DNA of 64,000 bases from Nocardiopsis exhalans (GTDB lineage: Bacteria > Actinomycetota > Actinomycetes > Streptosporangiales > Streptosporangiaceae): positions 1 through 64,000 of the forward strand of contig NZ_CP099838.1 in the NCBI RefSeq assembly GCF_024134545.1. The letters run 5' to 3'. Both the position numbers and the translations under genes were made by a program. Position 1 is the stretch's first letter. Each line of letters opens with the position of its first letter. Below are positions 25,390 through 57,487 of this stretch, one piece after another. A model generated the notes under the pieces. It searched no databases and was not told the DNA's origin. It was given only the letters and a program-made list of their open reading frames with translations.

Positions 25390-25440
25390 GGAAGCGACCT
25401 CCCCCCGGGTGGCGAGCACACGACTGACAACGCTAGACAC

Positions 25441-25640
25441 CCTACCATGACATCAAGATGCCTAGGTGTGTGGAGTTGTTTTAGGTTGTTGGGCCTCCTA
25501 CCTGGCAGGATGCCAGGGGAGGACCTGAGAGCCTCGTAGAGGCTCTCAGTGCAACCTGAAGGGCAAGACTGAGGCTGGGTACTGCTGGTGCGCCTGCTGC
25601 CTCCTGGGCGCCGCTGGCGGCCTTTTCTGGTATGGTTCAC
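25441..25640. other. candidate oriT / relaxase upstream region with two hairpins
   Basis: The 489-nt gap between the relaxase start and the NERD gene is otherwise empty. CCTGGCA-GGA-TGCCAGG (25501-25517), extended by CCTCC/GGAGG around a TA bulge, is followed by CTGAGAGCCTC-GTA-GAGGCTCTCAG (25525-25549), a perfect 11-bp stem. A GT-rich stretch (GGAGTTGTTTTAGGTTGTTGG) sits at about 25472-25492. MobF nick sites usually lie close to the relaxase gene next to inverted repeats. One or both hairpins could instead be attenuators of the relaxase transcript. The remaining 25641-25878 has AT-richer sequence, no repeat, and likely the NERD promoter. Confidence 0.5.
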
Positions 25641-26753: not shown

Positions 26754-26762
26754 TCACTTGGT

Positions 26763-27269: not shown

Positions 27270-27284
27270 GGTGTGCGCTCCTTG

Positions 27285-27428
27285 GTGTGGGCGGTGCGGG
27301 GGGAGGGTGTCGGTCTCCCCTGCCGCGATTTCAATATGAGTATATCAGTAGTTTGGGTGTGGTCGAACCACAACCACCAGCGAAAACGCGAAAACCCGCG
27401 CCGGATTCTCTCCGGCACGGGCTCGCGG
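27285..27428 (-). repeat. array cassette R1 (terminator-promoter-leader)
   Basis: Full cassette. In transcription order: hairpin terminator CCCGTGCCGGA/TCCGGCGCGGG followed by TTTT for the gene upstream; palindrome GTGGTTCGACCAC; promoter core TACTGATATACTCATATTG (core 27329-27352, TATACT as -10); leader hairpin GGGGAG-ACCGACACC-CTCCCC; CGCCCACAC; AAGGAG. Confidence 0.9.
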
Positions 27429-27433
27429 GCTGG

Positions 27434-27889
27434 CTAGGCGAAAGCCGCGCTGTACATCGCGCCGATTCCGAAACCGACACTGTCCATGTCCGCTACTGCC
27501 TCCTTGCTGGCCTGGGGGTAGGTGGCGTAGCGCTGGGCCGCTTCGTCCATACGTCGCATGTACTGGTGTGCCTCAGCCGCGTTGCCGGACTCGATGGCCT
27601 TGCGCGCCTCGTTGGCGTAGGCGTCGTGGATGTGCTCGGTGTGGATGTTGAGCACGTGCCACAACGTGGGGCGGATTCCTCCCTCTAGGGGGTTGATGCT
27701 GGCGGGGCCGTACTCCTTGACGATCTGGTCGCCTCGCTCCACGCGCACGGCCTGGACGTCGGGGGAGTAGGTCAGCGTGCGGGCGCGCCTGAATGTGTCG
27801 TCGTGGGTCTCGGTTTCGGGGCGGGGTGCGGTGTGGGTGACTCCTCCCTCGTGGGTGGTGGTGATGGTGACCGGCTGGTTCGTGGTCAT
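27434..27889 (-). CDS. array gene 2, paralogue of gene 1 (151 aa)
   Basis: Unknown function. TRT-rich start (MTTNQPVTITTTHEGG), strand pair (VQAVRVERGDQIVKEYG), then EHIHDAYANEARKAI (from residue 85) and AAQRYATYPQASKEAVADMD, aligning along its length with the gene at 26763. Predicted cytosolic, mostly alpha-helical in the second half. ATG 27889 has GAAAGAGAG upstream, part of a leader-only copy; there is no separate promoter cassette between it and gene 3, so those two are likely one transcript. Confidence 0.72.
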   Translation of the reverse strand: MTTNQPVTITTTHEGGVTHTAPRPETETHDDTFRRARTLTYSPDVQAVRVERGDQIVKEYGPASINPLEGGIRPTLWHVLNIHTEHIHDAYANEARKAIESGNAAEAHQYMRRMDEAAQRYATYPQASKEAVADMDSVGFGIGAMYSAAFA

Positions 27890-27912
27890 GGCGGGCTCTC
27901 TTTCGTGCTTCG

Positions 27913-27951
27913 GTGTGGGCGGTGCGGGGGGGGGAGGGTGTCGGTCTCCCC
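27913..27951 (-). repeat. leader-only copy L1
   Basis: Common leader hairpin and CGCCCACAC before the gene at 27889, without the promoter and terminator parts. Confidence 0.85.
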
Positions 27952-27975
27952 CCGCTCGGGTGGGTGGTGGCCTTC

Positions 27976-28338
27976 TTAGGCGGCCAGGCCGAGAACGTGG
28001 GTGCGGGCGTCCTTGTAGGCGGCCTTGCGGGGCTTGTAGGCGGCCAGGGCGGCCAGAACCTGAGCGCGGGTGTAGCGGGTGCAGGGGCGGCGGCGGCCGT
28101 CGGTGAGGGACCGTGCGGAGAACCCTCGGACTCCGGGACCCATCTTCTTCCTGAGACTGGCCGCAATTCCGGTAGCGGTGGCGGCGTCGGCTCCGAGGTT
28201 GCGCAGGTGGCTTGCCACGGTGTGAAGTTCGGCGCGGTAGGCGGCGCGGGCTGCGGCGCGCTCGGCGACCTTGGCGCGGCGGGCGGTGCGGCGGGCGAGA
28301 CGGTTGGTGCGGGCCTGGGCAACGGTGATGCGGGCCAT
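27976..28338 (-). CDS. array gene 3, very basic small protein (120 aa)
   Basis: Extremely Arg/Ala-rich (RTNRLARRTARRAKVAERAA, YTRAQVLAALAAYKPRKAAY) with few acidic residues, consistent with nucleic-acid binding. A serine/glycine stretch (MGPGVRGFSARSLTDGRRR) sits in the middle. No named family. ATG 28338 with AAGGAG in the common leader; it is the first gene after cassette R2 and is co-transcribed with gene 2. Confidence 0.7.
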   Translation of the reverse strand: MARITVAQARTNRLARRTARRAKVAERAAARAAYRAELHTVASHLRNLGADAATATGIAASLRKKMGPGVRGFSARSLTDGRRRPCTRYTRAQVLAALAAYKPRKAAYKDARTHVLGLAA

Positions 28339-28353
28339 GGTGTGCGCTCCTTC

Positions 28354-28497
28354 GTGTGGGCGGTGCGGGGGGAGGGTGTCGGTCTCCCCTGCCGCGCTTT
28401 CAATATGAGTATATCAGTAGTTGGGGTGTCCTCGAACCACAACCACCAGCGAAAACGCAAAAACCCGCGCCGGATTCTCTCCGGCACGGGCTCGCGG
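28354..28497 (-). repeat. array cassette R2
   Basis: Full terminator-promoter-leader cassette, promoter core 28398-28422. The small palindrome is broken here (GTGGTTCGAGGACAC), so that part is not essential to the cassette. Confidence 0.9.
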
Positions 28498-28510
28498 TAG
28501 GGCGCGACGG

Positions 28511-28891
28511 CTAACCGTCCGCGCGCTCCTGCAAACGGCTTTCCAGCATGGGCAGAACGTCCGCGCGCACGCGCTCCCACTCCTGGCCCATCGTCGGGGC
28601 TTCGCTGATCTGACGGTGGTACTCGGCCACCTGAGCCACGGGGGCGCTGTCCAGGTGGGCCGCGTCCCACGTGGGGATAATGTGCTCGTCCTCGATGGGC
28701 TGGACGCTCTCGCCTGCGGCGGGCGCTCCCATCTCGGGGAACCAGATCAGCTGGTGGCTGTTCTCGGGGATCGTGAACCAGGGGCCGAGAACCACGCCGC
28801 GCTTGGCCGTTTCGCTGCGGCTGCCGTTGCTCCAGACGTGGGCGAGAACGAACTGACCGGCGGCGGGGGCCTGGGTGGCGGTGTTGGTCAT
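28511..28891 (-). CDS. array gene 4, hypothetical protein (126 aa)
   Basis: Unrecognised. The first half has strands (GQFVLAHVWSNGS, KRGVVLGPWFTIPEN) and an aromatic turn (QLIWFPEMG), the second half is acidic and helical (VAQVAEYHRQISEAPTMGQE). No catalytic motif. Own full cassette upstream (R3) and a terminator from R2 downstream, so it is a single-gene unit. ATG 28891 with AAGGAG at 8 nt. Confidence 0.7.
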   Translation of the reverse strand: MTNTATQAPAAGQFVLAHVWSNGSRSETAKRGVVLGPWFTIPENSHQLIWFPEMGAPAAGESVQPIEDEHIIPTWDAAHLDSAPVAQVAEYHRQISEAPTMGQEWERVRADVLPMLESRLQERADG

Positions 28892-28906
28892 GGTGTGCGC
28901 TCCTTG

Positions 28907-29050
28907 GTGCGGGCGGTGCGGGGGGAGGGTGTCGGTCTCCCCTGCCGCGCTTTCAATATGAGTATATCAGTAGTTGGGGTGTCCTCGAACCACAACCACC
29001 ACCAAAAACGCGAAAACCCGCGCCGGATTCTCTCCGGCACGGGCTCGCGG
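28907..29050 (-). repeat. array cassette R3
   Basis: Full cassette, promoter core 28951-28975, same variant palindrome as R2. Confidence 0.9.
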
Positions 29051-29058
29051 TAGGGCTG

Positions 29059-29727
29059 CTAGAACGGTGCTTCGTCCTCGTGGTAGCGGCGTTCACGCTC
29101 GGCCTGCCGCTGCTCGGCCAACTCGTCCATGGTCGGGACCTTCTCCCATTCCAGTTCGGCCCACTCGCGGTACCACTCGCGCTCTTCGTCGGTGCGGGCG
29201 GGCTTAAGCTGGTTGAACCGGTTCAGGGCCTCTTCCATCCGGCGACCCTCCGGGCCTCGGCGTCCTTGCTCGTCCTGCTTGGCGAACTCGGCGAACAGTC
29301 CGCGCTCGGTGTGGTCTCGGGGCTCGTCTCCGGCCTCGAAACGCTCCCGCGCTGCGTATTCGGCTTCCCACTCGGCGCGCGCCTCGGTAGCGGCCTGGTG
29401 GGCCTGTTCCCGCTGGGCGGTCAGCATCTCGATGAGCTTGCCCAACTCGTTGACCGCGTAAGTGGTGGCCTCGACCACGTCCATGGCTCGCTGCGCTGCA
29501 TAGCGGGCCTGGGTCTGTCGGCGCGTGCTGAACGGCCACCAGCGCGGGGACTGGGCCTGTGCGGTCATCTCGTGTCGGTGGGCGCGGTGTACCCGCCTGA
29601 GGTCTCGGACCTGCTCCCGGCGGGCCTGGGCGGTGGCCAGTTCTCCACGGGTGGTGGTGTACCGGTTCCACTGGTGCAGATAGCGGGCGTAGCGGCCGCT
29701 CGGGTCCGTGATGGCCTGCGGGTTCAT
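29059..29727 (-). CDS. array gene 5, helical charged protein (222 aa)
   Basis: Unknown. Almost entirely helical and charged: RGELATAQARREQVRDLRRV, ELGKLIEMLTAQREQAHQAA, EERMEEAL-like segments and WYREWAELEWEKVPTMDELA. A short PRWWPFSTRRQ patch interrupts the first helix. Coiled-coil or helical-bundle structure is likely; no membrane segment. The open frame continues upstream through cassette R4, but ATG 29727 has GAAAGG and begins the coding bias. A leader-only copy precedes it and gene 6 lies upstream in the same transcript, with a GC-rich hairpin between them. Confidence 0.68.
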   Translation of the reverse strand: MNPQAITDPSGRYARYLHQWNRYTTTRGELATAQARREQVRDLRRVHRAHRHEMTAQAQSPRWWPFSTRRQTQARYAAQRAMDVVEATTYAVNELGKLIEMLTAQREQAHQAATEARAEWEAEYAARERFEAGDEPRDHTERGLFAEFAKQDEQGRRGPEGRRMEEALNRFNQLKPARTDEEREWYREWAELEWEKVPTMDELAEQRQAERERRYHEDEAPF

Positions 29728-29740
29728 GCTGAGCCTTTCG

Positions 29741-29771
29741 CGTGGGGCGGGGGGAGGGTGTCGGTCTCCCC
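29741..29771 (-). repeat. leader-only copy L2
   Basis: Leader hairpin GGGGAGACCGACACCCTCCCC with shortened spacer before the gene at 29727. No promoter core. Confidence 0.82.
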
Positions 29772-29777
29772 TTCGGG

Positions 29778-29804
29778 GCCGCCGCCCCGGGGCGGGGCGG
29801 CGGC
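29778..29804. terminator. hairpin between array genes 6 and 5
   Basis: GCCGCCGCCCC / GGGGCGGCGGC, perfect 11-bp stem, 5-nt loop, just past the stop of the 64-aa gene. Could weaken read-through into gene 5. Confidence 0.78.
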
Positions 29805-29812
29805 GGGCTGGT

Positions 29813-30007
29813 CTAGTAGGCGCCGTGGGCGAAGTAGTCGGCGAGTTCGGCGGCCGCGTGCGCGCGAACCGTGCGGCGGTGCTTGCGGTTGTACTCGACC
29901 TTGACCCCCCGCATGCTGATTCCGCGGCGGTTGTTGCGGATGCTGGTCCTGTCGCCAAGACCGCGCGTGTTGCCGGAGACCTTGGGCTCGCGGGTGGTGC
30001 TCTGCAT
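29813..30007 (-). CDS. array gene 6, small basic protein (64 aa)
   Basis: Basic and Arg/Asn-rich (RTSIRNNRRGISMRGVKVEY, NRKHRRTVRAHAAAELADYF). A tail of DYFAHGAY closes the protein. Might bind RNA or DNA; no family recognised. ATG 30007 with GAAAGAGAG in the common leader of cassette R4. Confidence 0.66.
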   Translation of the reverse strand: MQSTTREPKVSGNTRGLGDRTSIRNNRRGISMRGVKVEYNRKHRRTVRAHAAAELADYFAHGAY

Positions 30008-30022
30008 CGGGTGCTCTCTTTC

Positions 30023-30166
30023 GTGTGGGCGGTGCGGGGGGAGGGTGTCGGTCTCCCCTGCCGCGCTTTCAATATGAGTATATCAGTAGTTGGGGTGTGG
30101 TCGAACCACAACCACCACCAAAAACACGAAAACCCGCGCCGGATTCTCTCCGGCACGGGCTCGCGG
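30023..30166 (-). repeat. array cassette R4
   Basis: Full cassette, core 30067-30090, intact GTGGTTCGACCAC palindrome. Confidence 0.9.
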
Positions 30167-30174
30167 TCTCGGGG

Positions 30175-31413
30175 CTAGTTCACCTCGAACTTGCAGCGGG
30201 TGAGTACGGTCTCCTTCACCTCGCGGTAGGTCGTGTGCTCCTTGATCGTGGCCTTTCCGGTCACGGTCTGGCCCGTCTCGAACTCGGGTTCCTTGCTGGC
30301 AAACCACTTGAACCGGTTGCCGTCGGTGTCGGCGAACGTGACCAGCCAGCTAAGCCCGCTGTCGTAGTAGTGGTAGGCCTCGCGCTCGATGGTGCGCACG
30401 TTGAGCACGGTAAGGGTGCGCTCCTGGCGCTGCTTGACCTCTCCCACCCACTGGCTGGACTTGGCGGCCTGGCGGTCGCGCTCGGCCTCCTGGGCGCGCT
30501 GGTAGGTGCCAACGGCGCTGACCGCTAGGCCGAGGTTGCGGGGGCTGACGTTGTCGGCGCTCATGACTGCGCGCAGGTTCTGGATGTATTCGCTGTCTCC
30601 CTCGTGGTCCTGGGTCCATGCCTGGGCCTGGCGGGCGGTCTCGTGGTCGGTCTCGGTGGGCCGCAACGCTTCGCGCAGCTCCTGGGCGCTGCGGCTGCGG
30701 CCGTTAAGGGCATCACTCACGAGATCGGCCGTGGGGGTGGCGCGGGGGTCGTCGGTGCTGCGGGGGGTCCATCCCGCTCGGCGGACGGCTGCGGCCGCGA
30801 TGGCCAACACCACGGGCACGGGGTGGGTGTCCTCGCCGTATCCGCCGCTGTGGGTGGCCTCCTCGACGTCGCCGAACAGGCTGCCGCTGGCCTCGATGAC
30901 GGCGGGGCTGACGTTAACGCCGAGGAAGTCGGCCAGGCAGGATGAACCCACCTGCGTGACCTGGCCGCTTTCGGCGTGGGCAAGCACGTAGGTCTTGGTG
31001 CGCTCGCGCCGGATTCGGCAGTAATCGCACTGGGCGGGGTCGTAGGCCTCGGGGTCGAACTCGAACCCGGGTTCGGCGTGGTAGGTGGCCACGCCTTCGG
31101 CGTCCTGGTGGAACCGGGCCAGAACCTGCCACCCTCCGAAACTGGGCACCTGGCCCGTGACGGTGATGGTTTGCACCTGGACGTCGTAGGCCTCGGGGCC
31201 CTCACCGTCGCCGAGGCACACGTGCCGCGTGCGGGTGTGGTGCTCGGGGTCGATGGTCCAGCTGTAGCGGCCGGAGAGTCCGCGGTCCGTGGCGCGCTGG
31301 TTGGCGGCCTCCAGCCGGGCGACGGTCGCCTTCATCTCCTCGCCGGTCAACTCCCATTCGACGCTGGCCGTGTGCACGGTGGCGGTCCTGGTCTGGGTGT
31401 CGGTGCCGTTCAT
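30175..31413 (-). CDS. array gene 7, zinc-finger plus OB-fold-like protein (412 aa)
   Basis: The largest array protein. Middle: CDYC at 129-132 and a later GSSCLADFLG at 156-165 around a strand pair (KTYVLAHAESGQ), a possible zinc-stabilised unit. C-terminal 80 residues (LTVLNVRTIEREAYHYYDSG, LSWLVTFADTDGNRFKWFAS, VTGKATIKEHTTYREVKETV) have the strand order of an OB fold, so single-stranded nucleic acid binding is plausible. The N-terminus is helical plus strands. It could protect or process incoming single-stranded plasmid DNA; this is an inference from fold and place. ATG 31413 with AAGGAG at 8 nt, own cassette R5. Confidence 0.72.
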   Translation of the reverse strand: MNGTDTQTRTATVHTASVEWELTGEEMKATVARLEAANQRATDRGLSGRYSWTIDPEHHTRTRHVCLGDGEGPEAYDVQVQTITVTGQVPSFGGWQVLARFHQDAEGVATYHAEPGFEFDPEAYDPAQCDYCRIRRERTKTYVLAHAESGQVTQVGSSCLADFLGVNVSPAVIEASGSLFGDVEEATHSGGYGEDTHPVPVVLAIAAAAVRRAGWTPRSTDDPRATPTADLVSDALNGRSRSAQELREALRPTETDHETARQAQAWTQDHEGDSEYIQNLRAVMSADNVSPRNLGLAVSAVGTYQRAQEAERDRQAAKSSQWVGEVKQRQERTLTVLNVRTIEREAYHYYDSGLSWLVTFADTDGNRFKWFASKEPEFETGQTVTGKATIKEHTTYREVKETVLTRCKFEVN

Positions 31414-31428
31414 CGGGTGCGCTCCTTG

Positions 31429-31570
31429 GTGTGGGCGGTGCGGGGGGAGGGTGTCGGTCTCCCCTGCCGCGCTTTCAATATGAGTATATCAGTAGTTGGG
31501 GTGTCCTCGAACCACAACCACCACCAAAAACACGAAAACCCGCGCCGGATTCTCTCCGGCGCGGGCTCTC
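31429..31570 (-). repeat. array cassette R5
   Basis: Full cassette, core 31473-31497. In its terminator the wobble pair of other copies is restored to Watson-Crick (CCCGCGCCGGA / TCCGGCGCGGG), consistent with selection for the stem. Confidence 0.9.
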
Positions 31571-31584
31571 TCGGGGCGGGGTGG

Positions 31585-32580
31585 TTACTCCTGCGGCTTG
31601 GCGGTGGCGGCCAGCAGCGGGACGGCCTCCTCGGCGCTCATCCGGCCGGTGACCTTGTCGTAGGGCACCTTGTCGGTGAACTCACCCATGCGCCTGCTCT
31701 TGGCGCGCTCCTTGTTCATGATGGGCTCACCGATTCCGGTGTGGCTGTGGGGGATCGTCACCGACTTGGGGTTGACGCGCAGCACTTCCCACCAGGTGCC
31801 ATGGCAACGGACGTAGTCGCCCTTGGCGAAGTCCTCCTTACGCCAGACCTTGGCGCCGTTGGCCTCGGCCTCGGCGACCGCCTCTCGCCAGTAGGCCAAC
31901 TGCTCGTTGGTCTCGGCGAGATCGGCCGTGAGTCGGTCCCGGTAGTCCTCATTGCTCGTCCGCGCCAAGTTGCGCTCAATGCGGCGCTCCTCGGCCTCCA
32001 GCTTCTCGATTCGGCGCAGGGTCACGCCGAGGTTCTCGCGGCCGGACCGGTAGCCCTGGGCGGCCTGGGCGCGCTCTTTCCAGTAGCGTCCACGCCCGGC
32101 CTCCTGGGCGGACTGGTCGAACTTGCGGCCGATGCCCTCTCGGTAACGACGGTCACGCTTCTCGCTGTGGTGGCCGATCAGGATCGGCTGACCGAACGGG
32201 ATGGCGTCCGCGCGCTTCTTGGCTTCGGCCTCCAAGGCCTGGGCGTGGCCGGTGGCGCGCTCGCCGCGCTCGGCGTAGCGCTCGGCGCGGTCCTCGGCGC
32301 GGTCGTAGCTGGCGGCCTCGTGCTCGGCGAACGATGTCGCGGCCGGGGTGGTGTTGTCGATGGTGACGCTGACCTCGTGTCCGGCCGCGCGCAGCTTGTC
32401 GGCGGCGGGGTTGATGACCCACGTCTTGGCGGCCTTGCGGCGCGAGTGGGGCACGTACCAGGCGCCGAGGTTGCGGGAGAAGCGGAATCCTTCCGCCTTC
32501 AGGATGGGGCCGGTTCCGTCGCCCTTGGCGGTGCCCTCGACCAGGGTTCCCTGTTCGCGGTCGTGGTTGATCTCGATCAC
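31585..32580 (-). CDS. array gene 8, DUF3560-domain protein (331 aa)
   Basis: Residues about 85-160 match DUF3560: RAEDRAERYAERGERATGHA, then PFGQPILIGHHSEKRDRRYR with the conserved GHHSEKR. DUF3560 proteins are common on conjugative plasmids and phages and their biochemical role is not established. N-terminal 60 residues form strands ending WYVPHSRR; a long helical region follows (GVTLRRIEKLEAEERRIERN), then a strand-rich end with WRKEDFAKGDYVRCHGTWWE resembling a small beta-barrel. GTG 32580 with AAGGAAG is the start; the longer frame to 32649 just reads through the leader. Confidence 0.82.
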   Translation of the reverse strand: MIEINHDREQGTLVEGTAKGDGTGPILKAEGFRFSRNLGAWYVPHSRRKAAKTWVINPAADKLRAAGHEVSVTIDNTTPAATSFAEHEAASYDRAEDRAERYAERGERATGHAQALEAEAKKRADAIPFGQPILIGHHSEKRDRRYREGIGRKFDQSAQEAGRGRYWKERAQAAQGYRSGRENLGVTLRRIEKLEAEERRIERNLARTSNEDYRDRLTADLAETNEQLAYWREAVAEAEANGAKVWRKEDFAKGDYVRCHGTWWEVLRVNPKSVTIPHSHTGIGEPIMNKERAKSRRMGEFTDKVPYDKVTGRMSAEEAVPLLAATAKPQE

Positions 32581-32599
32581 GGGTGTGGCTTCTTCCTTC

Positions 32600-32736
32600 G
32601 TGTGGGCGGTGCGGGGGGAGGGTGTCGGTCTCCCCTGCCGCGTTTTCATTATGAGTATATCAGTAGTTGCGGCGTGCTCTGACCATATCCACCAGGGAAA
32701 ATGTGCAGAGGGTGCGGCGAGAAAACTCGCCGCACC
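32600..32736 (-). repeat. array cassette R6 (divergent terminator part)
   Basis: Promoter core (32644-32669) and leader are conserved, but the palindrome is lost and the terminator has been replaced by a different hairpin, GGTGCGGCGAG-AAAA-CTCGCCGCACC (32711-32736). Function kept, sequence changed. Confidence 0.85.
32711..32736. terminator. terminator of array gene 9
   Basis: Perfect 11-bp stem GGTGCGGCGAG / CTCGCCGCACC with AAAA loop. Confidence 0.85.
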
Positions 32737-32751
32737 TCCTGAGTAGTCGGG

Positions 32752-32973
32752 CTAGTCCTGGGCGCGCTCGACCTGCCGATCGGCGCGCACGGTCCACTCA
32801 CTCCTGCCCCGGCCGGGGATGATCAGGGGGAGGCGCACCAACGCGGGGTGCTCGGGCGCGGGCTCGGGGTCGCGCAGCACGCGGGCCGGTCCCCACGTGG
32901 TGTGTACGGTGTCGTCGGCGCGCAGTTCGCTAGCGTCAACGGTCTGCGGCGGGGTGTTGCCGGTGGTGGTCAT
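32752..32973 (-). CDS. array gene 9, small protein (73 aa)
   Basis: Unknown. Thr-rich start, then ELRADDTVHTTWGPARVLRD and strands (HPALVRLPLIIPGRGRSEWT) suggest a small beta-barrel, perhaps SH3-like. ATG 32973 with AAGGAG at 10 nt behind a leader-only copy; probably co-transcribed with gene 10. Confidence 0.68.
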   Translation of the reverse strand: MTTTGNTPPQTVDASELRADDTVHTTWGPARVLRDPEPAPEHPALVRLPLIIPGRGRSEWTVRADRQVERAQD

Positions 32974-32990
32974 GGTGGGTTGTCTCCTTC

Positions 32991-33023
32991 GCGTTGGGCG
33001 GTGGGGAGGGTGTCGGTCTCCCC
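32991..33023 (-). repeat. leader-only copy L3
   Basis: Shortened leader hairpin before the gene at 32973, no promoter core. Confidence 0.8.
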
Positions 33024-33067
33024 GTGGGGCTGGGGCCGCGCCGGGCTTGTCGGCGCGGGGCTGGGGC

Positions 33068-33094
33068 GGGGCGCCCCCGCTGCGGGGGCGCCCC
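33068..33094. terminator. hairpin after array gene 10
   Basis: GGGGCGCCCCCG-CTG-CGGGGGCGCCCC, perfect 12-bp stem, 11 nt past the stop at 33105. Confidence 0.85.
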
Positions 33095-33104
33095 GGGGGC
33101 GGGT

Positions 33105-33605
33105 TCAGTCCTGGTCGTTGATGCGCTCTAGCTCCTGGTCAGCGTGGGCCTGCAAGGCCTTCCGCACGGCCTTGGGGGCGTGGTAGGCGGTTGCCATCCG
33201 GTCGAGGTGGATGCCGAGGTGGGCGACAAAGCCTGCGTACGCCGGGAACTCAAGTTCGCGGGCCGCGCGCTCGATCATCGCCGTGACGTGGGCCCTGTCG
33301 GCCTCCAGTGCTCCGGGCTGGGTGTGGTCCAGGGACCACACCTCGGGCTTGGGGGCCCTGAGGATGTCGGCGAGGATCTGGCGCTGCTGGGCGTCGGCCT
33401 GCTGGTCGATCGCCGCGCGCAGGGTGTCCAGGCGGGCGCGCTGGGCCGGGTCGGCCTGGCGTTCGCAGGCGCGGATCTCGGCGCGGGCCTGGTCGCGGTC
33501 GGTGACCTGGCTGCCGCTGGCGAACGCGTAGAGCGCGCTGGTCTGGCCGTTGTGGAAGTCGGCGGCGATCTCGCGGGCCTGGTCCATCTGCTGTGCGTTG
33601 GGCAC
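33105..33605 (-). CDS. array gene 10, helical protein (166 aa)
   Basis: Unrecognised. Helical, Ala/Gln/Arg-rich (QMDQAREIAADFHNGQTSAL, RARLDTLRAAIDQQADAQQR, RAHVTAMIERAARELEFPAY, VRKALQAHADQELERINDQD) with a Tyr/Phe-rich patch (YAGFVAHLG). No membrane or metal motif. ATG 33605, own full cassette R7 upstream. Confidence 0.7.
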   Translation of the reverse strand: MPNAQQMDQAREIAADFHNGQTSALYAFASGSQVTDRDQARAEIRACERQADPAQRARLDTLRAAIDQQADAQQRQILADILRAPKPEVWSLDHTQPGALEADRAHVTAMIERAARELEFPAYAGFVAHLGIHLDRMATAYHAPKAVRKALQAHADQELERINDQD

Positions 33606-33619
33606 GGGTGTTCTCCCTG

Positions 33620-33763
33620 GTGTGGGCGGTGCGGGGGGAGGGTGTCGGTCTCCCCTGCCGCGCTTTCAATATGAGTATATCAGTAGTTGGGGTGTGGTTG
33701 AACCACAACCACCAGCGAAAACACGAAAACCCGCGCCGGATTCTCTCCGGCACGGGCTCGCGG
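33620..33763 (-). repeat. array cassette R7
   Basis: Full cassette, core 33664-33689. The palindrome is GTGGTTCAACCAC, changed in the centre but still palindromic. Confidence 0.9.
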
Positions 33764-33773
33764 GGGGCGGGGG

Positions 33774-34181
33774 TTAGGGCCGCGGCACGGCGCGCAGGTG
33801 CCCCCCGGGGCGGCGCAGGCGCGAACGGAGCGCCTCACACGCTTCCTCGGTGGCGGTCTCGGGCGCTTGCTGGTGGTGTCCGCTCTCGTGGGCGGGCTCG
33901 CGCAGGGTGGCGCTCTCGTAGGCCTGGGTGAATCGCGCCTGTGCCTGGTCGGGGTCGATTCCGTCCAACTCCACCACGGGGTCGCCGTTGAGCTCCCCAT
34001 CGGGCTGCACGAGCATGACAAGGGTCTCGCCCTCGGGCGCGGCCTCGTGGCGCGCGGTGGAGACAACCCAGGTGCGGCCGTCGTCGGTGCGCAGCACGCG
34101 CCGTTGCGCGCCGTTGGTGACGGTGGCCTCTCCGAGAACGGCAACGCGGGCGATGCGGGGGTCGGTGTCCTGGTGGTGCAT
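33774..34181 (-). CDS. array gene 11, hypothetical protein (135 aa)
   Basis: Unknown. N-terminal half is strand-rich (RIARVAVLGEATVTNGAQRR, VLRTDDGRTWVVSTA, GETLVMLVQPDGELNGDPVV) and the C-terminal half acidic then basic (EEACEALRSRLRRPGGHLRA). ATG 34181 has AAGGAAA upstream; the frame continues to 34256 through the leader and is trimmed. Leader-only copy L4 precedes it, so it is co-transcribed with genes 12 and 13 from cassette R8. Confidence 0.66.
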   Translation of the reverse strand: MHHQDTDPRIARVAVLGEATVTNGAQRRVLRTDDGRTWVVSTARHEAAPEGETLVMLVQPDGELNGDPVVELDGIDPDQAQARFTQAYESATLREPAHESGHHQQAPETATEEACEALRSRLRRPGGHLRAVPRP

Positions 34182-34197
34182 GGCGGTTTCCTTCTTC

Positions 34198-34236
34198 GTG
34201 TGGGCGGCGCGGGGGAGGGTGTCGGTCTCTCCCCGC
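34198..34236 (-). repeat. leader-only copy L4
   Basis: Leader with one extra AG in the 5' arm (GGGGAGAGACCGACACCCTC), loop sequence conserved. Confidence 0.8.
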
Positions 34237-34248
34237 TCGGATGGGCGG

Positions 34249-34680
34249 TCAGGCATCGTCGGCGCAGTAGCGCTCCTCGGTGCGCAGCTCCTCTACGCGC
34301 ACCCACGGCATGATGCGCTCGGCGTTCGTCTCGTCTTCGGTCTCCACCAGCAAGTCCAGGGCTCCCACGCCAAAGCGCAGGGCCTGTTCCAGATCTTCGG
34401 TGTTCATGCCGATGCTGTAGCTGACCACGCGCAGGCGCACGGTAGCGCCGACGATGTGGGCGGCCTCGGTCTGCTCGGCCTCTTCGGTGACGTGGCGTTC
34501 GGCCTGGTTCAGCATGGATCCGGCGTCGTGCCCGTCCTCGGCTGCGGTGTGCAGTACGTCGGTGATCAATCCGGTCATGGCCTCGTGCCCGCTGACGCCT
34601 TCGGACTCGGCGTAGGCCTTGAGTGCGGCGCGCGCGGAGGTGATGCGCGCGGTGCGGGTCTGGGCTGGGAACTCGATCAT
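34249..34680 (-). CDS. array gene 12, hypothetical protein (143 aa)
   Basis: Unknown. Mixed alpha/beta: a long helix (SARAALKAYAESEGVSGHEA), an acidic segment (HVTEEAEQTEAAHIVGATVR), strands (LRVVSYSIGMNTEDL) and a helical C-terminus. No family. ATG 34680 behind leader-only copy L5; the longer frame to 34914 is not supported. Confidence 0.67.
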   Translation of the reverse strand: MIEFPAQTRTARITSARAALKAYAESEGVSGHEAMTGLITDVLHTAAEDGHDAGSMLNQAERHVTEEAEQTEAAHIVGATVRLRVVSYSIGMNTEDLEQALRFGVGALDLLVETEDETNAERIMPWVRVEELRTEERYCADDA

Positions 34681-34696
34681 GGTGTCTTCCTTCTTC

Positions 34697-34729
34697 GTGT
34701 GGGCGGTGGGGGAGGGTGTCGGTCTCCCC
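34697..34729 (-). repeat. leader-only copy L5
   Basis: Leader hairpin before the gene at 34680, promoter part absent. Confidence 0.82.
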
Positions 34730-34738
34730 TGGCGGGGC

Positions 34739-34764
34739 GGGGCCGCCCTGGGTGGGGCGGCCCC
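34739..34764. terminator. hairpin after array gene 13
   Basis: GGGGCCGCCC-TGGGT-GGGCGGCCCC, perfect 10-bp stem (34739-34748 and 34755-34764), just past the stop at 34775. Confidence 0.78.
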
Positions 34765-34774
34765 GTGGGGCGGT

Positions 34775-34984
34775 TCAGCCCTGCATGGTCTCCCAACGGG
34801 AGTGCAACCGGTCCAGGCGCTCGGCCAGGGACTGCACCGGCGCGCCCTGGGCCTTGAGGATGAACGTGCCGTGTGTGGCCTGGTCAAGGCGGGTGTTCGC
34901 CGTCTGGGCGTCACCGTCGACCAGGGCCAGGGCGGCCGCGCTCAGGTGGGTGACAACCGCGTGGTGCAGGACCTCGGTGCTCAT
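34775..34984 (-). CDS. array gene 13, small helical protein (69 aa)
   Basis: Unknown. Predicted helical bundle (VLHHAVVTHLSAAALALVDG, AQTANTRLDQATHG, VQSLAERLDRLHSRWETMQG). ATG 34984 behind the leader of cassette R8. Confidence 0.67.
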   Translation of the reverse strand: MSTEVLHHAVVTHLSAAALALVDGDAQTANTRLDQATHGTFILKAQGAPVQSLAERLDRLHSRWETMQG

Positions 34985-34998
34985 CGGGTTTGCCTTTC

Positions 34999-35140
34999 GT
35001 GTGGGCGGTGCGGGGGGAGGGTGTCGGTCTCCCCTGCCGCGCTTTCAATATGAGTATATCAGTAGTTGGGGTGTGATTGAGCCACAACCACCAGCAAAAA
35101 CGCGAAAACCCGCGCCGGATTCTCTCCGGCACGGGCTCGC
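34999..35140 (-). repeat. array cassette R8
   Basis: Full cassette, core 35043-35068. The palindrome is GTGGCTCAATCAC, partly degenerate. Confidence 0.9.
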
Positions 35141-35155
35141 ATGGGCGGGGTTGGG

Positions 35156-35638
35156 TCAGCTTCGGCCGCGGTCCTGCTCGGCCTGGGCCTGTCGCACAAG
35201 GTGGACGAACCCGGCCAGGATCTCGGCGACGGCTTCGCTGGTGCGGCGGATGGGCGGCTCTCCCGGGATGCTCACCTCGGGGGCCCATCCGAGCAACACC
35301 TCGGCCTCATACAGGCCGCTGGTGGACAGGGCCGGGGCGGCGGCGTAGTGCTCGGCGCGGTGGGGGCCGTAGGCGTCGGCGCTCTGGGCCTGGTCGCTGC
35401 GGACGATGCCGGGCACCAGCACCAGGGCGGCGGCCACGTCCTGGCCCTGGTGGTCCAACAGCACCAGGACATGGCCGATGGCCGCGGTGACCTCCTCGGG
35501 GGTGGGCAACCATCCGCTGTTGACGCACGGGGTCAGATCCCGGGTCAGCACGCGCGCGGCGCTGATCCGGCGGGTGATGGAGTCTTGGCGGGGGAGTGGG
35601 GTCCAACCCTGGTGCGGGTCGATGGCCTGGTGCGTCAT
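35156..35638 (-). CDS. array gene 14, hypothetical protein (160 aa)
   Basis: Unknown. Helices (ITRRISAARVLTRDLTPCVN, EEVTAAIGHVLVLLDHQGQD), a Val/Ile-rich core (VAAALVLVPGIVRS), and a C-terminal helix (EAVAEILAGFVHLVRQAQAE). ATG 35638 behind leader-only copy L6, ends just before the terminator of R8. Confidence 0.68.
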   Translation of the reverse strand: MTHQAIDPHQGWTPLPRQDSITRRISAARVLTRDLTPCVNSGWLPTPEEVTAAIGHVLVLLDHQGQDVAAALVLVPGIVRSDQAQSADAYGPHRAEHYAAAPALSTSGLYEAEVLLGWAPEVSIPGEPPIRRTSEAVAEILAGFVHLVRQAQAEQDRGRS

Positions 35639-35650
35639 GTTCGTCCTCTC

Positions 35651-35684
35651 GCGTGGGCGGTGGGGGAGGGTGTCGGTCTCCCCC
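35651..35684 (-). repeat. leader-only copy L6
   Basis: Shortened leader hairpin before the gene at 35638. Confidence 0.8.
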
Positions 35685-35694
35685 TGGGGGTGGG

Positions 35695-35720
35695 CCGCGC
35701 CGGCCGGTCGGCCGGCGCGG
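35695..35720. terminator. hairpin after array gene 15
   Basis: CCGCGCCGGCCG-GT-CGGCCGGCGCGG, perfect 12-bp stem, 11 nt past the stop at 35732. Confidence 0.82.
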
Positions 35721-35731
35721 GGTTTGGGTGG

Positions 35732-36037
35732 TCAGTAGGGCAACTCGTTGAGGTGTTCGCTCAGACCTCGGCGCCGCTGCTCCTCCTCGGGGGTCGGGGC
35801 GGGCGGGGCGTCCTCGTTGTCCGCTGGGCTGTTGGTCGCGGTGCGCAGTAGCTCGGTGAGGCGCTCGGCGTCTCCTCGCCTGACGTAGGGGAAGCACAGG
35901 TCGGGGCCGTCTTCGATGTGGACGTGGATGCTTCCCCCGGTCTCGTCGGGGTCGTGCTCGTCGGGCTGCGCCTCCAGGAACGCGCCGAGTGCATCGATGA
36001 GCTGGGCGAACACCTGGCGCTCTGAGTCGTAGGACAT
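35732..36037 (-). CDS. array gene 15, acidic protein (101 aa), no common leader
   Basis: Unknown acidic protein: helix (RQVFAQLIDALGAFLEAQPD), strand (GGSIHVHIEDGPDLCFPYVR), then helix (DAERLTELLRTATNSPADNE) and a charged tail. This is the one array gene inside the block without the common leader hairpin, although a remnant TTTCGTGTCGGGC survives just upstream. ATG 36037. Probably co-transcribed from cassette R9 through gene 16. Confidence 0.66.
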   Translation of the reverse strand: MSYDSERQVFAQLIDALGAFLEAQPDEHDPDETGGSIHVHIEDGPDLCFPYVRRGDAERLTELLRTATNSPADNEDAPPAPTPEEEQRRRGLSEHLNELPY

Positions 36038-36073
36038 GACGGGTCTGCTTTCGTGTCGGGCTGGTCTGGGATG

Positions 36074-36101
36074 GGGGTGCGGCCCCTGCGGGCCGCACCC
36101 C
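36074..36101. terminator. hairpin after array gene 16
   Basis: GGGGTGCGGCCC-CTGC-GGGCCGCACCCC, perfect 12-bp stem, 12 nt past the stop at 36113. Confidence 0.83.
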
Positions 36102-36112
36102 GTGCGCGCCGG

Positions 36113-36595
36113 TCAGAACGCGAACGGCTCGTGAGCGTCGTAGACCTCCCACTCGGTCCCGTGGGCGGCGTACTCGGCGTGCATCAGGCACACCAGGACG
36201 TTCAGGCACAGCAGACGCGCCTGCTCGTGGTCGCGCGGGGCGGGGACGTCGCCCCGGTGGGCCAGGAAGGTGACCATCTGCGGGAAGTCCTCGCTCGGCC
36301 GGTGGTACTTCAGTCCCTCCGGCTCGACCTCCTGGCCGTCGGCGTCGTTGCGCTCGTCCTCAACGACGCCGCGCACCTCCTCTACCAGGACGGCGGGGTC
36401 CTCGCCGAGCCAGACGCTGGCGCGCGCGTAGACGGCGACCGCGACGCTCTCCAGGTAGGACATCTCGCACGGGTCGGTGACCGGGTCGGACAGGTCCTGT
36501 TGGAGCGCGACCACCAGGTGGCGGGCGGTGGCCACGCGGGTCTTGAGGGCGGCCAGCGCCTGGAGCTTTTCGCCGAAGGTGGGTTCGTGGGTCAT
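36113..36595 (-). CDS. array gene 16, hypothetical protein (160 aa)
   Basis: Unknown, mainly helical and acidic: LQALAALKTRVATARHLVVA, SYLESVAVAVYARASVWLGE, PQMVTFLAHRGDVPAPRDHE, LLCLNVLVCLMHAEYAAHGT. The central hydrophobic helices are amphipathic rather than membrane-spanning. ATG 36595 with GAAAGAGAG behind cassette R9. Confidence 0.7.
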   Translation of the reverse strand: MTHEPTFGEKLQALAALKTRVATARHLVVALQQDLSDPVTDPCEMSYLESVAVAVYARASVWLGEDPAVLVEEVRGVVEDERNDADGQEVEPEGLKYHRPSEDFPQMVTFLAHRGDVPAPRDHEQARLLCLNVLVCLMHAEYAAHGTEWEVYDAHEPFAF

Positions 36596-36613
36596 GTTCT
36601 GGTGCTCTCTTTC

Positions 36614-36754
36614 GTGTGGGCGGTGCGGGGGAGGGTGTCGGTCTCCCCTGCCGCGTTTTCAATATGAGTATATCAGTAGTTGGGGTGTGGTTGAACCACA
36701 ACCACCAGCAAAAACACGAAAACCCGCGCCGGATTCTCTCCGGCACGGGCTTGC
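36614..36754 (-). repeat. array cassette R9
   Basis: Full cassette, core 36657-36681, palindrome GTGGTTCAACCAC. Confidence 0.9.
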
Positions 36755-36771
36755 AGGGGTCGGGGAACGGG

Positions 36772-37401
36772 TCAGCCTCGGCGGCCGCGCCGGTGTTCAG
36801 CTCGGCGCTCGATCGCCTCGGGCATGTCGGCGTCGTGGGCCAACGACCGAGCCCCGCCCTCGTCGTCCAGGTGGATGACCACCTGAGCGATGAGTTCGCG
36901 CGCCGCGTCCTCGTAGCCGCCCGACTCCAAGACGTCCGCGCCCCCGTTGATCTGCTTCACCGCCTCGTTGAGCAGACGGCTGCGCACGGACCGGTCCAGC
37001 CGCGTTTCCAGCCGGTACCACGGGTCGCGCTCGCTCGTGGGGTACTTGATCGCGTTGTCGACGCACAGCAGGCCAAACGCCAGGGTCACCAGGTGACCCC
37101 GGAGGTAGTGGGCCTTCATACGCTGCTCTTCGTTGATCAGGTCCGCGCGCAGGCGGTCAGCCTGGCCGAGCTTTCCCGGGGTCTCCAGGTCGGCCAGGAT
37201 GTACAGGCACTGGGCTTCCCTCCACCCCCGTTCGGTGAGCCATTCGACCTTTCGCTCTCCAGCGCCTTCAACCATGCGGTAACTGAAGGTGAGTCCCTGC
37301 TCTTCCATCCCGGGGACGGGCTGGGGGACCTCGCCGAGCGGGTGGTCAGCCGCCGCGATCAGGGCGGTGACCTGCTCGGGGTTGTGGGCGGGGTGCTGCA
37401 T
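36772..37401 (-). CDS. array gene 17, hypothetical protein (209 aa)
   Basis: Unknown. Begins MQHPAHNPEQVTALIAAADH; the middle is a helical protein (WREAQCLYILADLETPGKLG, RMKAHYLRGHLVTLAFGLLC) with a conserved-looking PWYRLETRLDRSVRSRLLNE and a short tail with VVIHLDDEGGARSLAHD. No motif named. ATG 37401 behind leader-only copy L7; the longer frame to 37521 is trimmed. Confidence 0.68.
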   Translation of the reverse strand: MQHPAHNPEQVTALIAAADHPLGEVPQPVPGMEEQGLTFSYRMVEGAGERKVEWLTERGWREAQCLYILADLETPGKLGQADRLRADLINEEQRMKAHYLRGHLVTLAFGLLCVDNAIKYPTSERDPWYRLETRLDRSVRSRLLNEAVKQINGGADVLESGGYEDAARELIAQVVIHLDDEGGARSLAHDADMPEAIERRAEHRRGRRG

Positions 37402-37417
37402 CGGGGTGTTCCTCTCG

Positions 37418-37450
37418 TATGGGCGGCGGGGGAGGGTGTCGGTCTCCCCC
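37418..37450 (-). repeat. leader-only copy L7
   Basis: Leader hairpin before the gene at 37401, no promoter core. Confidence 0.82.
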
Positions 37451-37460
37451 TCAGGGGCTG

Positions 37461-37491
37461 GAGCCCGCGCCGAGGCCTTCGGCGCGGGCTC
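37461..37491. terminator. hairpin after array gene 18
   Basis: GAGCCCGCGCCGA-GGCCT-TCGGCGCGGGCTC, perfect 13-bp stem, 9 nt past the stop at 37500. Confidence 0.85.
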
Positions 37492-37499
37492 GGCAGGAT

Positions 37500-37946
37500 C
37501 TAGGGGATCAGGGTGAACCACTGGCCGAGACCTCCGGTGGAGGCCTCGCCTTCGACCTCGATGACCGGGTTGAACGAGGATTCGTCGTCGTATCCGATGT
37601 GCAACCGCACGGTGTGGTCGTAGTTGTCGGACTCCTCGACGTGAATGCTCACGTGCACGCCGTAGCCCTGGAGTGCGCCGCGCAGGCCCTGGCCGTGCTC
37701 GTCACCCTGGTAGTGGCGCAGGGTCAGCTCCTGGGCCTGGGCCTGGCTCATGCGGTTCTGGCGCTCCTTGAGCTTCTCCAGGCGGTCGATGAGGATCCGG
37801 TTCGCGGCCACGCCGTGGCGCTGGTAGATCTCATACCCCTCGGTCAGGGAGGTTTTGGCTCGGGAGGTTCGGCCCTCGCCGAGGTCCTGCTCGATGGTGA
37901 AGATCAGCCACGCGAGTCGTTCGTGGTCGTGCTGGTACGGGGACAT
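37500..37946 (-). CDS. array gene 18, hypothetical protein (148 aa)
   Basis: Unknown. A helical N-terminus (YQHDHERLAWLIFTIEQDLG, ILIDRLEKLKERQNRMSQAQ) and a strand-rich C-terminus (GVHVSIHVEESDNYDHTVRL, HIGYDDESSFNPVIEVEGEA). ATG 37946 behind cassette R10. Confidence 0.7.
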   Translation of the reverse strand: MSPYQHDHERLAWLIFTIEQDLGEGRTSRAKTSLTEGYEIYQRHGVAANRILIDRLEKLKERQNRMSQAQAQELTLRHYQGDEHGQGLRGALQGYGVHVSIHVEESDNYDHTVRLHIGYDDESSFNPVIEVEGEASTGGLGQWFTLIP

Positions 37947-37962
37947 GCCTGCCTCGTTTCGC

Positions 37963-38095
37963 GGTGGGCGGTGCGGGGGGAGGGTGTCGGTCTCCCCTGC
38001 CGCTCTTTCAATATGAGTATATCAGTAGTTGGGGCGTGGTTGAACCACACCCACCAGCGAAAACAAAAGAATCCATGCCGGATTCTCTTCGGCCT
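37963..38095 (-). repeat. array cassette R10 (decaying terminator)
   Basis: Promoter core 38006-38030 and leader intact; the terminator stem is degraded (ATCCATGCCGGATTCTCTTC on the + strand). Toward this end of the array the cassettes become less conserved. Confidence 0.88.
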
Positions 38096-38219
38096 TCGTT
38101 GTCCCCTCCGGCTGGTCACCGTCGTCTCGCGGCACCGGGCCGGCGCCGAGCTGGCTCCTGGGCGCCACGCACATGGACATGCGCCTCCACGGCTTCGACC
38201 GGTCGCGCGCATGCGGGCC

Positions 38220-38846
38220 TCACCTGGCGCGCCGGCCCCGACGTCCGGGCAGGCGGTTGAACCACTCGGCGACTGCACGGGCCTCGTGCAGTTCCTGGGC
38301 ATGGGGTTGCGTCGCGGATCCCTCCTCGGCCGACGCCTTGCCCTCGACTGGCGGCGGGAACCCCTCGTAGCCGCGGTAGCGGTACTTGTAAAGGTCCTCG
38401 GCGTGCTCCAACCCTGCGCGCACGGCGATGGCGTACAGGGTGAGGTGCTCGCCCTCCTCGAACAGCTCCGGGTCGATGCGTCGGTCCCGCGGGCGGGGGT
38501 AGGCCTCCAGTTCGGTGAGGCTGTAGACGTCGGGAGCCTTCCCCCTGCGCCTGGTGGCCCATCGGGGACCGGCCACCTGCGGGCGCACGTTCCAGTCCGG
38601 TCGGCGCTGCCACGACTTGACGGTGACCGGGTTCTCCTCGATGAACTGCGCCCACTGGTCCAGCGTCACGGGGGTCTCGGGGAGATCGGCCAGGATGTCG
38701 CGACTCAGGCCCCGTTCGTCCAGCCACCGCTCCAGCGCCTCGGTGTGGGCCTGGGCATCGCGTGCGATCCTCTTGGCGTAGGGGAACCCGTTCAGCTGGG
38801 CCCATCGGAGCACACCGAGTTGGTCTTGGGGTGGTGTCGCGCTCAT
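38220..38846 (-). CDS. excisionase/MerR-like DNA-binding protein (208 aa)
   Basis: Contains a probable helix-turn-helix with the excisionase-like pattern: TPVTLDQWAQFIEENPVTVK then SWQRRPDWNVRPQVAGPRW and a later DVYSLTELEAYPRP. Basic between the helices. The C-terminal 70 residues are acidic/helical and end in RLPGRRGRRAR. A likely regulator, possibly of the array; it lies at its distal end. ATG 38846 with GAAGGAG upstream; the leader has its own small hairpin, CCGCCGG-AGAAG-CCGGCGG, at 38868-38886. It has no array leader directly upstream, although R11 lies 250 nt further. Confidence 0.72.
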   Translation of the reverse strand: MSATPPQDQLGVLRWAQLNGFPYAKRIARDAQAHTEALERWLDERGLSRDILADLPETPVTLDQWAQFIEENPVTVKSWQRRPDWNVRPQVAGPRWATRRRGKAPDVYSLTELEAYPRPRDRRIDPELFEEGEHLTLYAIAVRAGLEHAEDLYKYRYRGYEGFPPPVEGKASAEEGSATQPHAQELHEARAVAEWFNRLPGRRGRRAR

Positions 38847-39234
38847 GTCCTGGCTCCTTCGGTTCGGCCGCCGGAGAAGCCGGCGGACCCGTGGTAATGT
38901 GACCGGACCACACTGCGGACTCTGTTCTGAGGTTCCGGCCTCCAGAGATCAGTGTTTTGCGTGTGGGCGGAAAATCGGCGGTCGTGGGTGTCGGCTTGGT
39001 CTCTTGCAGACTGGGTTCCTCGGCCGCCACTTTCATGCCCGAACAGGCCGGCGGCCTCGTCGGCCCCACTCGGCGCGGATGACGAGGATGCCGCCGCGGG
39101 GAAGGGCGTCGGTCTTCCCTGCCACAATTTCAATATGAATATATCAGTAGTTTGGAGTGCTGGGGTCCTTCCGGACGAACTTCTTCCTCAACGCCCTCCT
39201 GACGGCTTCCACAGCACGTCCTACACTGGGGCAC
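38847..39234. other. gap between array end and toxin-antitoxin genes
   Basis: 388 nt without a convincing gene. It holds the small hairpin before 38846, the degenerate cassette R11, and the divergent promoter of the antitoxin-like gene at 39235. An open frame at 38843-39133 has weak coding bias. Confidence 0.5.
39096..39157 (-). repeat. array cassette R11 (distal, degenerate)
   Basis: Core 39128-39152 (CAATATGAATATATCAGTAG, one change) plus leader hairpin GGGAAG-ACCGACGCC-CTTCCC, where both arms changed together relative to GGGGAG/CTCCCC. The terminator part is missing. This paired change is evidence for an RNA structure. Confidence 0.85.
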
Positions 39235-57467: not shown

Positions 57468-57487
57468 CGTGGTGTTCACTCCTTGTA

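Follow-up and report, generated by a model that had tools for sequence, protein, structure and literature searches.

Leading regions of conjugative plasmids help to decide whether a plasmid survives its entry into a new cell, and the published work consulted here covers F-like plasmids and those of Bacillus. In the Bacillus systems, establishment operons lie behind repeated regulatory sequences, and expression on p576 is made transient by a repressor (PMC8708921). The relaxase gene is typically found on the lagging side (PMC11541004). Start-associated repeats (SAS and ESAS), about half of them with an inverted repeat, have been described in cluster K mycobacteriophages (PMC3203893). Here, we describe an array of small minus-strand genes, most of them preceded by a repeated promoter and leader cassette, in the first 64,000 nucleotides (nt; positions 1–64000, the window) of a 90,897-bp contig in the 7.6-Mb genome of Nocardiopsis exhalans (NZ_CP099838.1). 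The array is likely to be an establishment regulon, probably an anti-defence one, located in the leading region of a conjugative plasmid of the MobF type, with a promoter for each transcription unit and an RNA leader for each gene; this reading is based on sequence and on analogy with the plasmid systems above.

The arrangement is real and non-random. The core of the cassette, termed alpha (TACTGATATACTCATATTG), has 11 matches in the window with at most one mismatch each, all on the minus strand (0.00 expected from 100 shuffles), and these array copies, R1–R11 (Table 1), account for all alpha cores of the genome. The leader GGGGAGACCGACACCCTCCCC has 18 matches against 0.02 expected, 17 of them with at most one mismatch and that of R11 with three. 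A first-pass annotation had already reported repeated cassettes before small leftward genes, and these counts bear it out. Within the span of the 19 leftward genes the opposite strand has no genes (codon-usage gene model). Cores and leader hairpins together serve 18 of the 19, gene 35732–36037 being the sole one with neither core nor decamer GACCGACACC. The core lies 80–85 nt before the start codon in 10 of the 19 genes, and the decamer 39–57 nt before it in 17. Seven genes have a leader without a core; because the gap to the preceding gene is only 67–131 nt, they look operon-internal, which would give 11 presumed transcription units, that of R11 included.

The promoter is of the extended −10 type (TGATATACT), and no consensus −35 is seen by eye. 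A leader hairpin with the loop ACCGACACC stands shortly 5' of the ribosome binding site (RBS) in 17 genes, operon-internal ones included. When R1–R10 are aligned with three copies from the sister plasmid MT53 (NZ_CP080600.1), a near-invariant block emerges that begins at about ACACCCC, takes in AACTACTGATATACTCATATTGAAA, the hairpin and CGCACCGCCCACAC, and ends at the RBS. Two further parts named by the first-pass annotation are less constant. The terminator is near-identical (at most three mismatches) in 8 of the 11 copies, its slot holding an unrelated hairpin in R6 and a degraded one in R10. As for the small palindrome, R2, R3, R5 and R6 have a broken version and R8 an imperfect one, and none of the three aligned MT53 copies contains it (by eye). 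The hairpin of R11, GGGAAG/CTTCCC, is a paired change relative to the alpha stem. The genes themselves are mostly unrelated, as had been claimed: among 20 window proteins compared there is one pair of paralogs (26763/27434, 32% identity), and the Pfam matches above cut-off in the array are DUF6409 (28511) and DUF3560 (31585) alone. The proposal of shared regulation, and of control DNA conserved more strongly than the genes behind it, is supported. A perfect inverted repeat with 26-nt arms lies at the array end (26701–26753).

The array runs into the gene of a MobF relaxase (TrwC-type match PF08751, E 9.9e-46), in which the TrwC domain is fused to DnaG-N/Toprim primase and AAA_30 helicase domains. 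This fusion suggests priming of the entering strand. The relaxase open reading frame comprises 2268 amino acids (aa) from 25440, the likelier ATG being at 25392. The window also encodes a coupling protein, a VirB4-like ATPase of the AAA_10 family and TcpC, as is characteristic of a MobF conjugative plasmid. The sequence 5' of the relaxase gene is partly conserved between the window and MT53.

A nic-like motif lies just 5' of the relaxase gene in 17 of 20 MobF loci, with no mismatch to the pattern in 10 loci, one in two, two in three, three in one and four in one; the pattern was derived from five of these 20 loci, and two of the loci (L220 and L221) share one contig. It was not found in L219, L226 and L229. 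On the other strand, the motif consists of a short hairpin, whose arms change yet remain complementary, followed mostly by C(C/G)TAGGTGT and G. The MobF loci, 713,848 nt when both strands are counted, hold 11 exact pattern matches, of which 10 are the relaxase-adjacent motifs; four further MobF loci match with four or five mismatches. The F/R1 TraI substrate, a 49-mer given in PMC5422253, has a hairpin, GTGGGGTGT, nic and GGTGC. The origin of transfer (oriT) predicted here shares with it a hairpin, a 9-nt spacer and GGTGT^G at the predicted nic, whereas the hairpin sequence differs. If the F/R1 homology holds, nic is predicted between 25469 and 25470 on the plus strand, and therefore the array would enter first, with the entering strand as its template. 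If this nic strand is right, all 19 array genes would be oriented with the transferred strand as template. The array adjoins the predicted oriT and lies across it from the relaxase gene, in keeping with the leading-region rule of PMC11541004. The order of array, nic-like motif and relaxase is common to the window and MT53. Beside the predicted oriT there are repeated GGTAACAG-type motifs (25706–25817), some of them common with MT53. The first-pass annotation had overlooked this context, from the relaxase and predicted oriT to the probable leading region, as well as the parallels in F and pLS20/p576.

The MT53 plasmid also carries a codirectional gene array running into mobF. Among 28 of its genes checked, four have an alpha cassette and 14 another type, beta, whose core lies 76–82 nt before the start. 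The decamer is in the loop of the alpha hairpin and 3' of the hairpin in beta. The absence of the core before small genes elsewhere had been set beforehand as a refutation; the core is found before four small MT53 genes, its first copy being degenerate (three mismatches). This copy stands 282 nt before the ortholog of window gene 38220–38846, the array's first, whose own core, R11, lies 303 nt before the start. R11 had been taken for a stray copy; it precedes the first gene by way of a long leader. Of this leader (38847–39095), about 75 nt, GGGCATGAAAGTGGCGGCCGAGGAACCC and the following bases, are conserved in MT53 by eye.

Homologs of 11 of the 20 window proteins are present on MT53 (E ≤0.01), in a partly different order. 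The window and MT53 cassettes of these pairs are alpha and beta in four, alpha and alpha in two, leader-only and alpha in two, leader-only and beta in one, alpha and none in one, and absent from both in one. Because the type differs in seven of the nine pairs in which both members have a cassette or leader, alpha being shared by two, control DNA looks homogenised within each plasmid, and cassette type tracks the plasmid more closely than the gene. The earlier idea of modular gene gain accordingly holds for the shared, reordered genes but not for the cassette, which does not simply accompany its gene. A contig of N. changdeensis has 14 beta cores, all on one strand, and the remaining 39 genomes searched in this genus have none. 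The alpha core (at most three mismatches) is found in 6 of 341 family genomes scanned; these six, among them the genome of the window, belong to a single genus. Lone copies occur in four other genomes of the genus in unrelated places (L134:7414, L135:6024, L136:9436 and L137:3143): next to an integrase, within a prophage-like stretch of genes and near DUF397/helix-turn-helix genes. Hairpin-rich sequence follows them 3' by eye, and no same-strand gene is called within about 500 nt. In contigs of a wider range of genomes, a 16-base core matches 80 stretches of unrelated taxa, all but one single-copy, and these matches are taken as chance. A phage origin was also considered and rejected: a 101-bp piece of cassette R2 is unmatched among 50,697 phage records. 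The leader 18-mer occurs once in each of four viral contigs, which lack both a beta core and any array of copies; the decamer occurs twice in one of these (L091) and once in each of the others.

Upstream regions linked to one another by repeats number 16 of 19 in the window and 20 of 26 in MT53. A search with the DUF3560 protein (31585–32580) returned at least 5000 plasmid records, most matching the domain alone, and led to Streptomyces arrays with repeats of their own: gamma in L234 (18 of 23 upstreams linked) and L236 (23 of 25), delta in L237 (10 of 32), epsilon in L238 (10 of 18) and L241 (10 of 17), and zeta in L239 (6 of 30). Repeats are present in eight of the nine DUF3560 loci examined, window and MT53 included. 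The arrays of L234 and L236 have mobF within the fetched stretch and run into it, and some gamma copies hold GACCGACACC. Linked upstreams number 0 of 9, 0 of 7, 0 of 10 and 0 of 4 in tra-side controls, and 2 of 20, 0 of 6, 0 of 3 and 3 of 15 in other parts of the contigs. A gamma query matched 10 plasmid records, six of them with 19–26 places each, and a composite epsilon query matched 25 records with up to 12 places. The arrays of the linear Streptomyces plasmids L237, L238 and L241 reach within about 1 kb of the record end, and several other records have their best epsilon places likewise near an end; the DUF3560 gene points toward the near end in L238 and L241 and away from it in L237.

The leader hairpins differ in loop sequence by plasmid lineage (ACCGACACC, rCCCA, rTGGCA, TTGGC and GTGGCA). 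Hairpins with these loops lie within 110 nt before starts in 16 of 16 cases for alpha, 15 of 16 and 19 of 20 for gamma and 10 of 10 for epsilon, and none is on the other strand. In epsilon the stems vary among the hairpins of one plasmid, and the loop is constant. In a covariation test on 9 of the 10 epsilon hairpins with 500 shuffles, 84% of cells are paired, 11 cells are changed on both sides against 4.5 in shuffles, and the covariation score is 0.439 against 0.214, neither value being reached in any of the 500 shuffles; slid structures score 0.017–0.194. Because operon-internal genes have the leader without the promoter, action at the RNA level is the simplest reading of the leader, and the hairpins may be a new RNA element. 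A search of Rfam with window 26500–40500 gave two sub-threshold matches (E 0.21 and 0.51), neither on a cassette, and no family was found in L234, L236, L237 or L238. Pairing of the decamer with 16S ribosomal RNA was rejected: no complement with at most one mismatch occurs on either strand of the 16S locus, and the best duplex site (−13.4 kcal/mol) is outside the 16S gene, the mean best of 30 shuffled decamers being −14.9.

The hairpins could have other roles on the entering DNA. In F-type leading regions, Frpo elements are single-stranded promoters: the entering strand folds, and its hairpins offer −10 and −35 to RNA polymerase ahead of complementary-strand synthesis. The predicted template role of the transferred strand and the several hairpins in each cassette would suit such a mechanism. 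However, the −10 is mostly unpaired on the entering strand, with a mean pairing probability of 0.38 in alpha (n=11), 0.34 in beta (10 of 14 copies), 0.43 in gamma (10 pattern-fitting copies) and 0.40 in epsilon (seven copies), against a background for random 10-mers of 0.61, 0.68 and 0.61 in the alpha, gamma and epsilon regions, respectively. Delta is the exception among the five types (0.62 in five copies, not below background). For this test, the F region before ssb did not provide a usable positive control. The complement of the core is absent from the plus strand of the window (0 matches with at most three mismatches). Folding thus does not place −10 and −35 in a transferred-strand hairpin, and we give an Frpo-type promoter little probability: F-like layout is supported, F-like regulation is not. 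An equally low probability is assigned to the idea that the hairpins are DNA signals on the entering strand, such as primase or single-strand initiation sites for complementary-strand synthesis, with gene proximity secondary. The primase domains of the relaxase and the recurrence of conserved-loop hairpins across the array would fit it, yet the spacing of the window hairpins to start codons, at operon-internal genes too, suits a role in mRNA better, and alpha, gamma and epsilon hairpins almost never occur outside leaders.

Two further explanations were weighed. The cassettes may be promoters of ordinary constitutive accessory operons, spread by duplication and unconnected to conjugation, which is suggested by the plain extended −10 character of the core and by its single-copy occurrence in four further genomes of the genus. 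We regard this as unlikely: in this genome the core is restricted to the array beside the predicted oriT, the tra-side controls have no upstream repeats, and the same layout recurs with unrelated cassettes in MT53, L234 and L236. The least probable of the explanations considered is a gene-capture array, in which the repeats are integron-like or homologous recombination sites, genes are swapped and regulation is a by-product. Near-identical repeats do provide homology, and gene order differs in part between the window and MT53 arrays. However, since the cassettes of homologs differ, genes do not travel together with them, and constancy of the epsilon loop with varying stems within a plasmid fits RNA recognition better than site-specific recombination.

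Table 1 Features of the window (positions in the 64,000-nt stretch).
Feature	Position	Strand	Remark
Cassette R1: terminator, alpha core 27332–27350, hairpin leader, RBS	27270..27430	-	before gene 26763–27269
Cassette R2	28339..28500	-	before gene 27976–28338
Cassette R3	28892..29053	-	before gene 28511–28891
Cassette R4	30008..30169	-	before gene 29813–30007
Cassette R5	31414..31575	-	before gene 30175–31413
Cassette R6, different hairpin in terminator slot	32581..32750	-	before DUF3560 gene 31585–32580
Cassette R7	33606..33767	-	before gene 33105–33605
Cassette R8	34985..35146	-	before gene 34775–34984
Cassette R9	36596..36760	-	before gene 36113–36595
Cassette R10, degraded terminator	37947..38108	-	before gene 37500–37946
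R11: core 39131–39149, variant hairpin 39099–39119, long leader	38847..39157	-	before gene 38220–38846
Leader-only hairpin	27931..27951	-	before gene 27434–27889
Leader-only hairpin	29751..29771	-	before gene 29059–29727
Leader-only hairpin	33003..33023	-	before gene 32752–32973
Leader-only hairpin, 1 mismatch	34212..34232	-	before gene 33774–34181
Leader-only hairpin	34709..34729	-	before gene 34249–34680
Leader-only hairpin	35663..35683	-	before gene 35156–35638
Leader-only hairpin	37429..37449	-	before gene 36772–37401
Array, 19 small leftward genes	26763..38846	-	gene model
DUF3560 protein gene	31585..32580	-	domain relatives in IncF leading region and Streptomyces arrays
First array gene, 208 aa, candidate regulator	38220..38846	-	winged-helix-like stretches, low-confidence model
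Predicted oriT core	25441..25470	+	hairpin 25451–25460; CCTAGGTGT 25461–25469; predicted nic 25469/25470
MobF relaxase with DnaG-type primase and AAA helicase domains	18634..25392	-	profile matches
Type IV secretion system (T4SS) coupling protein	14995..17073	+	T4SS-DNA_transf, TraG-D_C (PF02534/PF12696)
AAA_10 ATPase	54984..57872	-	domain match
TcpC conjugation protein	58020..58988	-	domain match

The gene neighbourhoods of DUF3560 are consistent with an establishment role of the array. An IncF plasmid of E. coli has a DUF3560 gene among antirestriction, methyltransferase, ssb and psiB genes pointing toward traM, and in L234 and L236 the DUF3560 gene is accompanied by methylase, ArdC-like, DUF6884 and dndC genes before mobF. 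Among the window proteins, the product of gene 38220–38846 is the best candidate for a regulator. It heads the array and has a 75% ortholog on MT53 and six other database relatives. Its structural model has a mean predicted local distance difference test (pLDDT) score of 66, with small DNA-binding domains among its weak best hits in the Protein Data Bank (PDB) and no PDB match at E <0.001. Elsewhere in the window, a protein at 45501–47687 has a LigD-type primase-polymerase match, and a Pycsar effector domain is matched weakly, below the cut-off, at 42085–42714.

Because of the array anatomy and the analogy with Bacillus establishment regulons, we propose the following course of events. The relaxase would nick the plus strand near 25469/25470, and the array would enter the recipient first, the transferred strand being its template. 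The region would then become double-stranded, possibly primed by the relaxase–primase fusion, whereupon the identical, insulated promoters would fire together, and at each gene the leader hairpin would adjust translation or stability. Once the plasmid is established, expression would be damped by a factor that it encodes and that the recipient lacks, comparable to the Reg repressor of p576; the protein of 38220–38846 is the best candidate for this factor. The uniformity of cassettes within each plasmid would presumably reflect gene conversion or coevolution with that factor. More tentatively, the per-gene 5'-leader hairpins of actinobacterial plasmids may carry a lineage-specific loop "address" for a plasmid-specific RNA-binding reader, so that the entry regulon would be switched post-transcriptionally as well, on in the new cell and off in the established one.

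Several observations weigh against the establishment regulon and its RNA leader. No named anti-defence family is found among the window array genes with Pfam, ncbifam and phrogs, the padloc library not having been run: ncbifam gives no family for the 20 window proteins, and phrogs matches five, four of them of unknown function and one a weak excisionase match. The small palindrome, tried as an operator, was rejected because it is not constant across alpha copies, and no operator is defined. Most other MobF loci have no repeated cassettes: among 21 besides the window and MT53, linked upstreams are absent from 16 (two of them stretches of less than 4 kb), form one pair in four and number five in L222. 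This last array, from another genus, has two alternating repeated hairpins before its genes and no repeated promoter. The cassette loci were found through DUF3560, a selection that biases their frequency, and the DUF3560 locus L240, typed MOBP, has 0 of 9 upstreams linked. There is no credible nic motif match in L234 or L236, and no mobF in the fetched stretches of L237, L238, L239 and L241, to which the leading-region placement is not carried over. As to the leaders, with loops chosen after the sequences had been seen, beta loop hairpins are only weakly enriched (8 of 17 in leaders, two on the other strand) and those of delta are not (2 of 5, p=0.13). In epsilon, 6 of 10 pairs are changed on both sides, which 28 of 500 shuffles reach, and 78 of 500 reach the count of further pair types.

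If the establishment reading is true, the cassette becomes a handle, and any gene behind it becomes a candidate entry or anti-defence gene. This would matter in a phylum rich in natural-product producers, nearly all such window genes being unnamed, and the leaders with constant loop and variable stem constitute an RNA element worth testing. Repeated promoter–leader cassettes in actinobacterial leading regions were not named in the titles and abstract openings listed by literature searches on this and neighbouring subjects (at most 20 of up to 185 papers per search), in a library that leaves out preprints and most subscription papers.

The mycobacteriophage repeats, which the first-pass annotation offered as a loose parallel, are similar in layout, standing before many small genes of different families (PMC3203893), but the SAS motif GGGATAGGAGCCC is absent from the array; one two-mismatch match lies in the window at 3166, where 2.20 are expected. 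As in the F/IncF Frpo islands described in PMC11541004, the genes lie across oriT from the relaxase and point toward oriT, and the template strand is the transferred one, by prediction here; DUF3560 is common to an IncF leading region and the window. The array differs in that no single-stranded promoter fold or named anti-defence family is found and a hairpin leader precedes nearly every gene. In Bacillus, EGeRS2 of p576 and EGeRS1 of pLS20 are likewise repeated regulatory sequences before each operon of variable establishment genes (PMC8708921). The pLS20 repeat, however, comprises 420–750 bp without a sigma-A promoter, in contrast to about 140 bp with an extended −10 here, and the transferred strand of pLS20 is the non-template one, whereas that of the window is the predicted template. 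The array leaders, unlike the Bacillus repeats, also precede internal genes. The dual TTATCCC heptamers of EGeRS2 are absent from the array (two three-mismatch window matches, both outside it, against 0.91 expected), and the 20 proteins scanned have no Pfam match to a ribbon-helix-helix repressor of the p576 type. On the side of likeness, p576 has strong promoters. Thus, the control sequences of these systems are not found here, but by analogy the array is taken to work like the F leading region and the pLS20/p576 regulons.

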